Shown here piece after piece: positions 22,840 to 29,804 of a stretch of 35,908 nt of DNA (the stretch's first letter is position 1; every line of letters starts with the position of its first letter). The notes beneath the pieces are model-generated. The model worked only from the letters and a program-made list of their open reading frames with translations. It did not search any database and was not told where the DNA came from. This DNA is from Rhizobacter sp. (GTDB lineage Bacteria; Pseudomonadota; Gammaproteobacteria; Burkholderiales; Burkholderiaceae_C). Where the stretch lies: assembly GCA_021732645.1 (NCBI GenBank), contig JAKFUQ010000034.1, positions 1-35,908 on the forward strand. Direction: 5' to 3'. Made by a program: the position numbers and the translations under genes.

Positions 22840-23252
22840 GGAGCGGCAGAGTGAGTGGATGACGACCGGAACTTGAATCTTGCAAGCGACGTACTTCCGC
22901 GATACGTGGAAAAGGTCGCAGACGAGATGCCTTATCGGGTTGACACGGGCCGGGTTTTCCGAATGTCCTCAAGTCGTCTGGCGATCTGACGAAACAGCCA
23001 CCAGCGAGGTGTGAGTCCCAAGCCTCGTGGTCCGGAACAGCCGAGCGCAGGTCCCCACAACCAATCAAACGGGGGTTTGCGCGATGACTGCCGCCGGGCG
23101 CAGCCGGTCCAGGGAGCCCCGGAAAGTGCCTGGTCACACAGCCCAAGCACAGCCAGCCCGAAGACTGGCTCGATGGAGGTGGGGCAACCCGCCTCTGTCG
23201 AGGCAAAGCCGGCGTCCACGCCGGGAGTTCATCAACCTAAGGAGCTTTTCTC
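22840..23252 (+). promoter_or_regulatory. Divergent flhDC-island/flagellin spacer with long fliC leader
   Basis: A 413-bp gap between the TPR glycosyltransferase (left, minus) and flagellin 1 (right, plus). It holds the sigma-28-like site at 22969-22995. If that site is used, the flagellin message has a leader of about 250 bases. The leader contains several stems, for example around 23001-23035 (CCAGCGAGG with CCTCGTGG) and AGCCAG/CTGGCT near 23150-23170. The flagellin ribosome site AAGGAG lies at about 23239-23244. I find no ORF of substance. Confidence 0.6.
22969..22995 (+). promoter_or_regulatory. Probable sigma-28 (FliA) promoter of flagellin gene 1
   Basis: TCAAGTCG, 11 bases, GACGAAAC. 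The -35 is the same TCAAG form seen before motA, fliD, fliS and the 83-residue ORF. The -10 is weaker than at the other sites (five of eight). Confidence 0.6.
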
Positions 23253-24446
23253 ATGGCATTGACCATCAACACCAACGTATCCTCGCTGACGGCACAGCGC
23301 AACTTGAGCACTTCGCAAAGTTCGCTGTCCACGTCTTTGCAACGTCTGTCGTCTGGCTTGCGCGTCAACAGCGCCAAGGACGACGCCGCCGGCCTCGCGA
23401 TCGCTGAACGTCTGAGCTCGCAAGTTCGCGGCCTGAACGTCGCGGCCCGCAACGCCAACGACGGCATTTCGCTGGCGCAAACCGCTGAAGGCGCGCTGGG
23501 CAAAGTGACCGAGTCGCTGCAACGCATTCGCGAACTGGCAGTTCAGTCGGCCAACGCGACCAACAGCGCAGACGACCGCAAGGCGCTGCAAAACGAAGTC
23601 TCGCAACTGCGTGACGAAATCGACCGCGTCGCCAAGAACACCACTTTCAACGGCACCAAGCTGCTTGACGGCTCGCTGACCGGCGCCACCTTCCAGATCG
23701 GCTCCGGCGCCGGCGAAAACATCACCGTCTCGTCGGTGACGAACGCCAGCGCCAGCAACCTGTCGAGCGTGACCTTCGGTTCCGGTGACGTGGCTGACAT
23801 CAGCACCGGCTCGGTCACGACGCTGGCCGCCATCACGGCCGGCACGCTGGCGATCACCGTTGACGGCACCGAATACGACCTGTCGGCCGTGGCCGCCGCC
23901 GACTCCGCCGAGCAGCGTCTGGGCCAAGTGGCTGAGGCGATCAACCGCCGCACCTCGGACACCGGCGTCACTGCCTACCTGTCCAAGGAGGCCGACGGCG
24001 AATACGCTTTGGCTTTCCGCTCCAGCAAGCTCGACTCGTCTGACGCCGCCGCGGCAGTCTCCATCGGTGGCTTCACCGTGGCGACCACCGGCATTGCCGA
24101 TGGCAGCCTGACGGTGGCCGCTGACAGCGTCACTGGTGTTGAGGATCTGTCGGTGGAAACGGTTGAAGACGCGTGGTTGGCCATCAAGCAGATCGACGAT
24201 GCGCTCGACCAGGTCAACAGCGCACGTGCCACCTTGGGTGCGGTGCAAAGCCGCTTCGAGGCGGCTGTTTCCAACATCGCCACGCAAGTCGAGAACACGG
24301 CCGCCGCACGGGGCCGGATCGTCGATGCGGACTTCGCATCGGAAACGGCGAACCTGTCGCGTGCTCAGGTTCTGCAACAGGCGGGTACGGCCATCGTGGC
24401 CCAGGCCAACCAGTTGCCGCAGCAGGTGCTGCAGCTGTTGCGATAA
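23253..24446 (+). CDS. fliC: Flagellin, copy 1
   Basis: Filament subunit of 397 residues. The N-terminal D0/D1 region (MALTINTN start, [36 protein letters not shown]) and the C-terminal D1/D0 region ([31 protein letters not shown] end) are typical. The middle part (about 170-295) is Ser/Thr/Ala-rich and less conserved; it would be exposed and carry glycans. Start at 23253 is preceded by AAGGAG. A strong terminator follows at 24488-24515. The protein differs from the second flagellin mostly in the middle and shares long identical stretches with it at the ends. Confidence 0.97.
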
Positions 24447-24673: not shown

Positions 24674-25873
24674 ATGCCACAGACGATCAACACAAACATC
24701 AACTCGCTCACCGCGCAACGCAACTTGACCGCGTCGCAAAGCTCGCTGGCCACATCGATCCAGCGGCTGTCTTCGGGCTTGCGCGTGAACAGCGCCAAGG
24801 ACGATGCGGCCGGCCTCGCGATTGCCGAACGACTGAACACCCAGATTCGCGGCCTCAATGTGGCCGCTCGCAACGCCAACGATGGCATCTCATTGGCCCA
24901 GGTGGCTGAAGGTGCGCTCGGCAAGGTGGGCGACTCGCTGCAACGCATTCGTGAGCTGGCGGTGCAATCGGCCAACGCGACCAACAGTGCCAGCGACCGC
25001 GCTGCACTGCAGGCCGAAGTGGCGCAGCTGACCGATGAAGTCAACCGCGTCGCCAAGCAGACCTCGTTCAACGGCACCAAGCTGCTCGACGGCAGCTTCA
25101 CCGCCGCCAGCTTCCAGATCGGCGCCAACTCCGGCGAGGCGATCACCATCGCCGCACTCACCAACGTGAGCACCGATGGCCTGTCGAACGTGACCTATGG
25201 CACCGGCGATGTCACCGACATCAGCAGTGGCGGGATCACCACGCTGACCGCCATCGCCAGTGGCACGCTGGCGATCTCGGTCGCAGGGACCGAGTACCCA
25301 TTGGCCGGTGTCGCCGCCGCCCGCAGCTCGGAAGAGCGGCTGGGCCAGGTGGCCGAAGCCATCAATCGGCGCACCTCCGACACCGGAGTGACCGCCTACC
25401 TGTCCAAGCAAGCCGATGGTGAGTACACGCTGGCGTTCCGGTCGAGCACGGTCGATGCGGTGACGGCCACGGCAGCGGCCGTGACCTTCGGCGGCTTCAG
25501 CGTGGCGACCACCGGCATCGGCGACACGAGCGCCAACATCGCCTCGACCAATGTCTCCGGGTTCAGCGCCCTGTCGGTGGCCAGCACCGAAGACGCGTGG
25601 CTTGCCATCAAGCAGATCGACGACGCACTTGACCAGGTCAACAGCGCACGTGCCACCTTGGGTGCGGTGCAAAGCCGCTTCGAGACGGCGGTGTCGAACA
25701 TCGCCATTCAATCGGAAAACACTGCTGCCGCGCGTGGCCGCATCGTCGATGCCGACTTCGCGGTCGAAACGGCGAACCTCTCGCGTGCGCAGATCCTGCA
25801 ACAAGCGGGCACCGCGCTGGTGGCGCAGGCCAATCAGCTGCCGCAGCAGGTGCTGCAGCTGCTGCAGCGTTGA
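24674..25873 (+). CDS. Flagellin, copy 2
   Basis: Second filament subunit, 399 residues, with the same D0/D1 signatures as copy 1 ([51 protein letters not shown]) and a Ser/Thr-rich middle. GGAG lies nine bases before ATG 24674. Over 200 bp separate it from copy 1, with a terminator between, so it needs its own promoter; I find no good sigma-28 site in this spacer, unlike the other late genes. It may be the minor or differently regulated filament protein. A hairpin follows at 25902-25946. Confidence 0.96.
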   Translation: MPQTINTNINSLTAQRNLTASQSSLATSIQRLSSGLRVNSAKDDAAGLAIAERLNTQIRGLNVAARNANDGISLAQVAEGALGKVGDSLQRIRELAVQSANATNSASDRAALQAEVAQLTDEVNRVAKQTSFNGTKLLDGSFTAASFQIGANSGEAITIAALTNVSTDGLSNVTYGTGDVTDISSGGITTLTAIASGTLAISVAGTEYPLAGVAAARSSEERLGQVAEAINRRTSDTGVTAYLSKQADGEYTLAFRSSTVDAVTATAAAVTFGGFSVATTGIGDTSANIASTNVSGFSALSVASTEDAWLAIKQIDDALDQVNSARATLGAVQSRFETAVSNIAIQSENTAAARGRIVDADFAVETANLSRAQILQQAGTALVAQANQLPQQVLQLLQR

Positions 25874-26004: not shown

Positions 26005-27459
26005 ATGGCGACCATTTCGTCCCCCGGCCTGGGCAGCGGACTCGACGTCGACTCGATCGTCGGCCAGCTGGTGGCGATCGAGCGGCGCCCGATCGAGTTG
26101 TTGACGCAACAAAAGACCACGCTGCAGGCCAAGCTGTCGTCCTTCGGCTTGCTCAAGAGCTACACCACCAACGTGCAGGACGCGGTGTCGCGCCTCGCCG
26201 ATCCGACGCTGTGGCAACGGACCACGGCAGTGTCGAGCGACACGGCCAGGCTGACGGCCAGCTCGACGGCGGTGGCCGTACCCGGCAACTACAGCATCCA
26301 GGTGTCGCAGCTCGCCCAAGCCCATTCGCTGGCGTCGGGTGTCTACGCCAGCAGCAGCGCGTCGGTCGGCACCGGCACGCTCACCATCGACCTCGGCAGC
26401 TACGACAGCGGGTCGAACTTTGTGCCGCGTACGCCACCGGCCTCGGTCAGCATTGCCATTGGCGTTGGCGAAGACTCGCTGGAGTCGGTGCGCGCCAAGA
26501 TCAATGCTGCCAATGCCGGGGTGACCGCCACGATCGTCAAAGACGCTTCCGGCGCACGCCTGGCGATCCAGTCCACGGCCACCGGCGCCAGCAGCGCCAT
26601 CCGCATTGCGGTCGCTGCCGACACGCCGTTGCCGGTGGGCCCCAGCGATCCGCCGTCGCTGGCCAGCCTGGCCTACGACCCTGGCGTGCCGGCCACCAGC
26701 CAACTGACCCAGACCCTCGAACCCAAGAATGCGCTGGCAACGATCAACGGCCTGAGTGTGGCGTCGACGACCAACACCTTCACCGACGCCATCGAAGGCG
26801 TGACGCTGAATGTCGCCCAGGTCACCACCAGCGCCGTCCAGGTTCGCGTGGGGGCCGACAGCGACGCCTTCAAGAAGGCGGTCACCGACTTTGTCCGGTC
26901 GTACAACGAGATCAGCAACTACCTGTCGGCGCAGACCAGATTCGATCCCGACACCAAGGTGGCCGGCGCGCTGCAAGGCGACCGGGCAACCTTGTCGCTG
27001 CAATCGCAGTTGCGCACCGCTGTTGCGCAGCCCAGCGACGCCTCCGCCACCTACCGCACGCTGTCCGACCTGGGCATCGAGCTGCAAAGAAATGGCACGC
27101 TGACCGTCAACGACAGCAAGCTGACCGCTGCACTGGGCAACCTCACTGAGGTCGGCAAAGCATTCAGCAACCCGGCCACCGCGGGTGCTGGCGCCACCGG
27201 GATTGCGGTGCGGCTCAAGGCACTGACGACGGCGGCCAACAACAGCGACGGCGTGGTCACCACCCGTGCCGAGGCATTGCGCGCATCGATCAAGCGCAGC
27301 GACACCAGCGTCGAGCGCTATGAGTTGCGGGTGGCGGCCACGCGGGCGCGTCTGTTGGCGCAGTACGGCGCGCTCGACACCCGGATCAGCACGCTGAACA
27401 ACTTGAACACGTTTGTCACGCAGCAGTTCTTCAACACCTCGAACAGCAACAACAACTGA
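26005..27459 (+). CDS. fliD: Flagellar filament cap protein FliD
   Basis: Caps the growing filament and folds flagellin. The 484-residue protein begins with the family N-terminus (ISSPGLGSGLDVDSIVGQLV), has the coiled N-terminal helix region, a beta-rich exposed middle with ATINGLSV and IEGVTLNV motifs (FliD C-terminal family start), and a C-terminal coiled segment ending in short Asn-rich tail. AAGGAG precedes ATG 26005. Position after flagellin and before fliS is the usual one. No flaG-like gene is present between them. Confidence 0.96.
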   Translation: MATISSPGLGSGLDVDSIVGQLVAIERRPIELLTQQKTTLQAKLSSFGLLKSYTTNVQDAVSRLADPTLWQRTTAVSSDTARLTASSTAVAVPGNYSIQVSQLAQAHSLASGVYASSSASVGTGTLTIDLGSYDSGSNFVPRTPPASVSIAIGVGEDSLESVRAKINAANAGVTATIVKDASGARLAIQSTATGASSAIRIAVAADTPLPVGPSDPPSLASLAYDPGVPATSQLTQTLEPKNALATINGLSVASTTNTFTDAIEGVTLNVAQVTTSAVQVRVGADSDAFKKAVTDFVRSYNEISNYLSAQTRFDPDTKVAGALQGDRATLSLQSQLRTAVAQPSDASATYRTLSDLGIELQRNGTLTVNDSKLTAALGNLTEVGKAFSNPATAGAGATGIAVRLKALTTAANNSDGVVTTRAEALRASIKRSDTSVERYELRVAATRARLLAQYGALDTRISTLNNLNTFVTQQFFNTSNSNNN

Positions 27460-27472
27460 GCGTCTCGCGCAC

Positions 27473-27500
27473 TCAAGTGCCCGCGCTGCGGTGCCGATAA
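27473..27500 (+). promoter_or_regulatory. Probable sigma-28 (FliA) promoter of fliS-fliT-ycgR
   Basis: TCAAGTGC, 12 bases, GCCGATAA. The -10 is a perfect consensus match; the spacer is one base longer than at the other sites. It lies right after the fliD stop, 33-60 bases before fliS. Confidence 0.65.
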
Positions 27501-27532: not shown

Positions 27533-27985
27533 ATGTACGCCGCAGCCAACCCCTTTCGCAATGCCAGCTTCAGCGGGCAGTCGAATGCCTATCGCGAGGT
27601 CGGAGTCACCTCCGCAGTCGACGGGGCGAACCCGCATCGGTTGATCCAGATGCTCTACGACGGGCTGCTCGAATCGATCGCCCAGGCCCGCGGGGCCATG
27701 CGCGCGAACAACGTCGAGCTGAAATGTCACAGCCTCAGCCGCGCGGTGCGCATCGTCGAGGAAGGCCTGCACGGCGGGCTGGACCTGGCGTCGGGTGGTG
27801 AGCTGGCAGCCAACCTGAGCGTGCTCTATGGCTATGTGTCGCGGCGACTCACGCTGGCCAATCTGCGCAACGACGAGGCCATGCTGCAGGAGTGCGCCGA
27901 CCTGGTCGAGCCGCTGCGCGATGCCTGGTCGCAAATTGCCGCACAGGCCACGGCATCAACACCGAAACGGGTTGTCAACGGATGA
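27533..27985 (+). CDS. fliS: Flagellin export chaperone FliS
   Basis: Cytosolic chaperone that keeps flagellin unfolded for export. The 150-residue helical protein carries the family motif NPHRLIQMLYDGLLESIAQARGAM and an LYGYVSRRLTLANLRND segment. Two in-frame ATGs exist at 27524 and 27533; 27533 fits the GAGGA spacing better. The gene ends overlapping a possible start of the next gene at 27982 (ATGA). Confidence 0.95.
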   Translation: MYAAANPFRNASFSGQSNAYREVGVTSAVDGANPHRLIQMLYDGLLESIAQARGAMRANNVELKCHSLSRAVRIVEEGLHGGLDLASGGELAANLSVLYGYVSRRLTLANLRNDEAMLQECADLVEPLRDAWSQIAAQATASTPKRVVNG

Positions 27986-28020
27986 AACTGCAGCCGCAAA
28001 CCACCCCCACCGGAACGGAC

Positions 28021-28320
28021 ATGAGCACCACCTTGCTCCAGTACTACGAGGCCATAGAACGCGCCAGCCAGGACATGCTCGAGGCCGCACGCAATGGCAA
28101 CTGGGACGCCGTGGTCAAGCTCGAAGGCGCTTGCGCCTTGCTGATCACACAGCTCAAGCACGCCGCCGCGAATCAGAGGCTGGCCAGTGAAGAGTTGCAA
28201 TTGAAGTCGCGCATCATGCAGCGCATCCTGGTCAACGACGCCGAGGTGCGGGTGCTGGCCGAGCCCTGGCTGGAAGGCCTGGATCACCTGCTGGGGACGA
28301 CCCCGGCCACGCTGCACTGA
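28021..28320 (+). CDS. fliT: FliT-like flagellar chaperone
   Basis: A 99-residue helical protein after fliS. The N-terminal part (LLQYYEAIERASQDMLEAARNGNWDAVVKLE) fits FliT-type chaperones, which bind FliD and can hold FlhDC inactive. The assignment rests on gene order as well as weak similarity, since FliT is poorly conserved. An earlier ATG at 27982 overlaps the fliS stop by four bases; 28021 is preferred because it matches the family start and has GGAAC upstream. Confidence 0.8.
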   Translation: MSTTLLQYYEAIERASQDMLEAARNGNWDAVVKLEGACALLITQLKHAAANQRLASEELQLKSRIMQRILVNDAEVRVLAEPWLEGLDHLLGTTPATLH

Positions 28321-28336: not shown

Positions 28337-29095
28337 ATGGACACGCTGCCGATGCCGCTGGACGCCGTGGCTGCTGCGCATGGCGGCCTCGACGACTTCC
28401 ACATCACCGCGCCGGTGGAACTGGCGGCCATGCTCAAGCAACTGCTCGATGCCAATGTGGTGCTGAACCTGAACGCACCCAACGGCACGGCGGTGGCCGT
28501 CACGCTGTGGACGGTGGATGCGGCGCGGGACATGATCAGCTTCAGTGCCGATCCCCAGTCGCCGCAACTCCAGGCGCTGATTGAATGCAACGAAGCGGTG
28601 GCCGTGGGCTACCTCGACAGCGTCAAGTTGCAGTTCGACCTGCAGGGGTTGCTGCTGGTGCACAACGGTCGCACCAGCGCGATCAGCTGCAGCTACCCCC
28701 GCGACATGTTCCGCTTTCAGCGCCGCAACGGCTACCGCGTCCGGCCGCTGCTGCGGCATGCACCGATGGCGCAGCTGCGCCACCCCATGTTGCGCGACAT
28801 GCCGCTGTCGCTGCGCGTGCTCGATGTGAGCATCGGCGGCTGTGCGCTGTTTCTGCCCGACGATGTGCCGATGATCGAGCCCGGCGTGCTGCTCAACGGC
28901 GTGGCGCTTGAACTCGATGCCGACACCCGCATCAGCACGCCCTTGCGACTGCAACACGTCACCTCGCTGCAGCACGATGCGGGCGGCGTGCGGCTGGGCT
29001 GCGAGATGGTCAATGTCGGTGCCGACAGCCTGCGTGCGCTGCAGCGCTACATCGACCAGACACAGAAGCGTCGGCGCCAGATCGCGCTCGACTGA
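28337..29095 (+). CDS. ycgR: Flagellar brake protein YcgR (PilZ domain)
   Basis: c-di-GMP-binding protein that slows the flagellar motor. The 252-residue protein has the N-terminal YcgR domain (about 15-115) and a C-terminal PilZ domain (about 125-245). The binding motifs are present: RRNGYR at 129-134 gives the RxxxR motif and DVSIGG at 163-168 gives D/NxSxxG. It follows fliT by 16 bp and may be in the same transcript. A c-di-GMP switch inside the fliS operon links attachment signals to swimming. Confidence 0.93.
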   Translation: MDTLPMPLDAVAAAHGGLDDFHITAPVELAAMLKQLLDANVVLNLNAPNGTAVAVTLWTVDAARDMISFSADPQSPQLQALIECNEAVAVGYLDSVKLQFDLQGLLLVHNGRTSAISCSYPRDMFRFQRRNGYRVRPLLRHAPMAQLRHPMLRDMPLSLRVLDVSIGGCALFLPDDVPMIEPGVLLNGVALELDADTRISTPLRLQHVTSLQHDAGGVRLGCEMVNVGADSLRALQRYIDQTQKRRRQIALD

Positions 29096-29137
29096 GCACT
29101 GCACCACGCGTTGTTACAACGTGGCGGCGGGCTGCCG

Positions 29138-29164
29138 TCAAGTCCACAGCGCAGTCGCCGACAT
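29138..29164 (+). promoter_or_regulatory. Probable sigma-28 (FliA) promoter of the 83-residue ORF
   Basis: TCAAGTCC, 11 bases, GCCGACAT. Spacing exact, -10 six of eight. The predicted start point is about 35 bases before ATG 29205. Confidence 0.65.
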
Positions 29165-29204
29165 CCTGGATACGGGCAGCGTGCCCCGAATGCCGGAGTG
29201 AACC

Positions 29205-29456
29205 ATGAACCTTAGCAAAGTGACTGCCATCAGCGCGGGCGCTCCGACGATCGCTGCGGTTCGGCCTGCCGACGCTGCCAGCGATTCGTCCCAGCAGTCG
29301 TCGCAGCGCGAGCAACAGCAGTCCGAGCCCGACACGGGAGCGCGCCGCTTTCCCTGGTTGAGCTGGGAAACCAGGCAGCTTGAAGCAGCATCGAAGCAGC
29401 CCTCACCGTATGGCCGCGTGCCGCTGCTCGGGGAAACGCTGGACCAGAAGGTGTGA
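29205..29456 (+). CDS. Hypothetical 83-residue protein with sigma-28-type promoter
   Basis: I do not recognise this protein. It is 83 residues long, low in hydrophobics, with a Ser/Gln/Glu-rich middle (SSQQSSQREQQQSEPDTG) and an aromatic segment (RRFPWLSWETRQLE). There is no signal peptide or membrane helix. GGAG lies eight bases before the ATG and a sigma-28-like promoter lies 41-67 bases before it, so it is probably a late flagellar gene. It is convergent with fliE, with a GC hairpin between. Possible roles are a small chaperone, an export-linked protein or a regulator; nothing in the sequence decides. Confidence 0.7.
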   Translation: MNLSKVTAISAGAPTIAAVRPADAASDSSQQSSQREQQQSEPDTGARRFPWLSWETRQLEAASKQPSPYGRVPLLGETLDQKV

Positions 29457-29459
29457 CCA

Positions 29460-29480
29460 GGCGGGGCGTGAGCCCGCGCC
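29460..29480. terminator. GC-rich hairpin between the 83-residue ORF and fliE stops
   Basis: The 24-bp gap between the two convergent stops has an imperfect stem GGCGGGGC/GCCCGCGCC with a GTGA loop. No T-run; possible two-way stop of transcription. Confidence 0.35.
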
Positions 29481-29804
29481 TTACACCTGCATGTTCATGA
29501 TGTCGCTGTACGCCTGAACCAGCTTGTTGCGCACCTGGATCGTCGCCTGGAAGCCGATCTGAGCCTTCTGCATCGCGACCATGGTCTCTTCGATGCTGAC
29601 GTTGGGGTTGTCGAGCTGCACCTCGCGCTGCAGCCGACCCGCCTGGGCTTGGGTGTTGCTGACCGCGCCCAGCGCCTGGGTCAACGCCGCCTGAAAACCA
29701 CCGCCCTCTGCCGCGGCCGCCTTACCCAGCGGTTGCCCTTGAAGGTTCAGGCCGGCGCGCGCCACCGCCTGTGAAAAGTCGAACGGCTTGAGCGTGACAT
29801 TCAT
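29481..29804 (-). CDS. fliE: Flagellar hook-basal body protein FliE
   Basis: Small rod-base protein joining the MS ring to the rod and needed for export. The 107-residue protein has the family C-terminus (SIEETMVAMQKAQIGFQATIQVRNKLVQAYSDIMNMQV type). AGGGGTG lies before ATG 29804. It is divergent from fliF over a 215-bp spacer, as often in proteobacteria, so promoters for both should lie in 29805-30019; I see no certain site there. FliE and FliF are normally class II, FlhDC-dependent. Confidence 0.96.
   Translation of the reverse strand: MNVTLKPFDFSQAVARAGLNLQGQPLGKAAAAEGGGFQAALTQALGAVSNTQAQAGRLQREVQLDNPNVSIEETMVAMQKAQIGFQATIQVRNKLVQAYSDIMNMQV

Follow-up and report, generated by a model that had tools for sequence, protein, structure and literature searches.

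The open reading frame at positions 29205..29456 (+ strand) of the window, which is the whole stretch of 35,908 nucleotides of Rhizobacter sp. DNA analysed here, is hereafter called X. It begins with ATG, has 83 codons and ends with TGA, and is preceded by a ribosome-binding site, GGAGTG (29195..29200, + strand), of which GGAG is invariant in nine aligned relatives. The upstream neighbour on the same strand is ycgR (28337..29095), coding for a PilZ flagellar brake (PilZN, 4.8e-17, and PilZ), which in turn follows fliT (27892-28320). Downstream lies fliE (29481..29804, - strand; 8.2e-27), convergent with X, the two stop codons being 24 nt apart. A GC-rich hairpin, GGCGGGGC-GTGA-GCCCGCGCC (29459..29481, assigned to neither strand; -17.5 kcal/mol), is found between these stops and is a probable terminator common to X and fliE; in the relatives it is weaker and variable.

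A sigma-28-like promoter was identified upstream of X, with a -35 element, TCAAGTCC (29138..29145, + strand), and a -10 element, GCCGACAT (29157..29164, + strand), separated by 11 nt. This TCAAGTCC-N11-GCCGACAT begins 67 nt 5' of the ORF and scores 12/13 against TCAAGT/GCCGATA. According to a third-order Markov model of the window, with both strands counted, 0.05 sites at this level are expected per whole window and approximately 8e-5 per 110-nt upstream stretch, whereas four were observed in the window, including one before fliD (25952) and one at the fliS start (27473, 13/13). TCAAGT and GCCGA are both invariant in the nine aligned upstream regions of relatives, corresponding to 6/6 columns of the -35 hexamer and 5/6 of the -10, compared with 0/13 in the spacer region. 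The spacer thus drifts among relatives with nearly invariant boxes at near-constant spacing, and the -35 element begins 59 to 71 nt ahead of the X start codon (16 sequences). Both the arrangement and its distance from X suit a promoter of the FliA type (TMAAGTnn-N11-GCCGATnn). FliA is encoded in the genome (TIGR02479, 267 bits, above the cut-off; C53) and the separate flgM bears TAAAGTCC-N11-GCCGAT, so the sigma-28 motif appears to be in use in the Rhizobacter genome. In E. coli, FliA binds TCAAGTCC...GCCGATAA at flgKL and ...GCCGACAT at aer (PMC4183435), and both half-sites of X therefore have experimentally bound counterparts with the same letters. The preliminary description had proposed an 83-residue ORF with a ribosome-binding site and its own sigma-28-like promoter; the ORF occupies exactly the interval given above, the GGAG is kept in the nine aligned relatives, and the promoter is present, far above chance and conserved.

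Other elements were observed around the promoter. GTTACAA (29113..29119, + strand) lies 18 nt 5' of the -35 element and recurs at 17-19 nt in most of 16 relatives, across genera; it may serve as an activator site or UP-like element, or may simply belong to the 3' end of ycgR. The E. coli aer promoter is a sigma-28 promoter requiring CRP (PMC2859248). An inverted repeat overlaps the -35 element in relatives, for example TTGACGGC-N5-GCCGTCAA at L010:3917-3937; the corresponding repeat in the window (29122-29142) is imperfect. The arms of the repeat co-vary in some relatives (e.g. L007, L009 and L011), and the repeat may be a hairpin at the 3' end of the ycgR transcript, or else an operator.

Elsewhere in the cluster, the 13/13 site, TCAAGTGC-N12-GCCGATAA at 27473-27500, is located just 5' of the likely fliS start, which suggests an own late promoter for fliS-fliT-ycgR; the TTG at 27413 with which the 190-aa fliS ORF starts probably lies upstream of the true start. 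There are two tandem flagellin genes. The first (23253-24446) has a weak sigma-28-like site, TCAAGTCG-N11-GACGAAAC, at 22969, and just upstream of the second (24674-25873) no match to TCAAGT/GCCGATA of at least 10/13 was found.

The N-terminal approximately 46 residues of X are variable, of low complexity and hydrophilic, and no clear Sec signal is seen in them. The conserved core consists of the C-terminal 37 residues (residues 47-83, RRFPWLSWETRQLEAASKQPSPYGRVPLLGETLDQKV; 29343..29453, + strand), with the pattern RFPWLSxxxxxLExASKQPSPYGxxPxLGxxLD; it was delimited from alignments, pN/pS and an AlphaFold block of pLDDT 63-79 and reads RFPWLSxLxxELExASxQPSPYGxxPxLGxxLD across genera. The pN/pS ratio is about 0.10 in the core versus about 0.52 in the N-terminal part, and between the window and three relatives pN in the core is 0 while pS is 0.44-0.62; the core is under strong purifying selection. 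The AlphaFold model, which is of low confidence (pLDDT 57, pTM 0.22, nine closely related sequences), shows the N-terminus as disordered and places a single main helix at about residues 50-63, and the N-terminal approximately 46 residues are probably disordered.

X had no match above chance in Pfam, NCBIfam, PHROGs or PDB sequences, and no description of the gene was found in the literature searched. PDB profile matches to MIF (E at least 0.69), four weak matches within the same genome (E 0.03-0.85) and class-level matches over 16-21 residues (E 0.006-0.009) were taken as chance. Four loci (L024, L025, L036 and L037), each obtained in one search only, with a single protein or a profile, were rejected as chance, no flagellar neighbours having been found.

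Relatives of X are 32-73 % identical overall. A scan of GTDB genomes gave eight outside loci with relatives that share 50-73 % identity along almost their whole length, and at all eight, and in several further genera, X sits between ycgR and the convergent fliE. The gene order fliD-fliS-fliT-ycgR-X, with fliE convergent on X and fliF beyond it, was present wherever the neighbourhood was read, with one exception (L034/L074) in which X has been relocated inside the cluster. The short gap to fliE, 24 nt in the window, is also kept at most loci. X was found in 13 of 301 genomes of the same family, in six genera, compared with FliE in 238/301; the search scored only the best candidates per genome, and very diverged relatives may have escaped it. 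On these counts X is an accessory and not a general part, and since most flagellated relatives are without it, it is dispensable for building the flagellum in general. Order- and class-level searches gave no credible relative outside the bacterial family, and none was found on the plasmids searched. In the FliE/FliF tree most carriers fall into two groups, both inside a wider clade with non-carriers among its members, and the relocated copy belongs to a distant group (placed from a partial FliE only), a pattern consistent with gain, loss and one or more transfers. At three loci (L059, L062 and L066) the gap between ycgR and fliE is occupied, in place of X, by a protein of 160-190 aa whose N-terminus (GFTLIELAAVMAILGIVLAVAVP) resembles that of a type IV pilin.

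The exceptional copy (L034/L074) lies between fliT and ycgR, in a genus of which two other members have no X at that place. It has its own TAAAGTTC-N11-GCCGATAG directly upstream, and because this independent promoter is kept, the promoter is separable from ycgR; the relocated copy is the best single argument for X as a sigma-28 gene in its own right. In another, diverged copy (L035) the FPWLS motif is gone, and TCAAGT/GCCGA boxes are absent just upstream of it. The suggestion in the preliminary description that X resembles no flagellar protein agrees with the database searches. Homologues do occur between ycgR and fliE, and the lack of conservation in near relatives that would have spoken against the gene is not seen, as sequence, position and promoter are all conserved. 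The proposal that X is a small, new addition to the sigma-28 motility regulon is supported by this conservation and by the relocated copy with its own site, with the qualification that X is a lineage-restricted accessory.

X is a genuine gene, very probably coding for an undescribed, lineage-limited flagellar accessory protein, and we are highly confident that the gene is of the sigma-28 class. The reading preferred here, with a probability of roughly 0.6, is that X is a FliA-controlled, partly disordered small adaptor or regulator which docks on a flagellar partner by its C-terminal core; a choice of any one mechanism would be tentative, well short of even odds. X would be transcribed from its own FliA (sigma-28) promoter once the hook-basal body is finished, co-expressed with the late class (flagellin, the FliD cap, FliS and FlgM), and would most likely act as a small adaptor or regulator. 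Its first half would be an unfolded, poorly conserved tail, as in FlgM and other late proteins competent for export, and may itself permit export. The last 37 residues are predicted to comprise an amphipathic helix (FPWLSxxxxxLExAS) and, after it, an extended segment, QPSPYG..P.LG..LD, and the helix and the PSPYG segment would dock on a conserved flagellar partner. Gene neighbourhood points to FliD, FliS and FliT, which make up the late chaperone/cap set, or else to the YcgR brake, as the likeliest partners.

A more specific possibility, rather unlikely as it stands, is that X partners the YcgR brake or the motor, the core binding YcgR and tuning the c-di-GMP-dependent slowdown of swimming. 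X adjoins ycgR at every credible locus, usually directly after it, and also where it has moved upstream of ycgR, but several genomes of the same family have ycgR beside fliE without X. The relocated X moreover accompanies a much more divergent YcgR, 35 % identical, and X is therefore not bound to one YcgR type. Secretion of X as a late flagellar export substrate, either like FlgM or as a minor protein associated with the filament or cap, is similarly doubtful. The promoter class, the small size, the lack of a clear Sec signal in the disordered, hydrophilic N-terminus and the proximity of the cap/chaperone operon would suit such a substrate, although it is the C-terminus that is conserved and not the N-terminus. 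It is improbable that X is the first member of a new family of small flagellar regulators of the late class which, in a single branch of the Burkholderiales, couple export or cap completion to the c-di-GMP brake. The promoter could in principle matter more than the protein, sigma-28 transcription running against the convergent early gene fliE and damping it late in assembly, as the convergent layout with its short gap would allow. This is very improbable in view of the strong protein-level selection on the core, the GC-rich hairpin between the stops and the relocated copy, which is not beside fliE.

Being short and matching no family, accessory flagellar genes confined to one lineage are missed in annotation. 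The conserved promoter and position, the relocated copy with a sigma-28 site and the selection on the 37-residue core make X a testable case for such a gene, and the core is a defined peptide which could be used as bait for partners.

Among known systems, FlgM, the anti-sigma-28 factor (PF04316), is similar to X in being the product of a flagellar gene of about 80-110 aa with a disordered hydrophilic N-terminus and a sigma-28 promoter. That X is an FlgM-like anti-sigma factor or a FliA co-regulator, as this size, disorder and promoter class could suggest, is nevertheless very improbable, and identity with FlgM was rejected. X has no PF04316 domain (0 Pfam families), the conserved cores are unrelated, and the genome has a bona fide FlgM of 108 aa on another contig (C280), the sole similarity of X to which is in low-complexity N-terminal composition (6 bits). 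YcgR (PF07317/PF07238), which is likewise FliA-dependent in E. coli (PMC4183435), adjoins X but has no sequence relation to it, both domains being absent from X. The E. coli FliA regulon also includes accessory genes without an obvious role in building the flagellum, such as flxA and modA (PMC4183435). Genes of this type have, like X, their own FliA-type promoter and stand outside the conserved flagellar structure, whereas X is located inside the flagellar gene cluster, in a place kept across genera.
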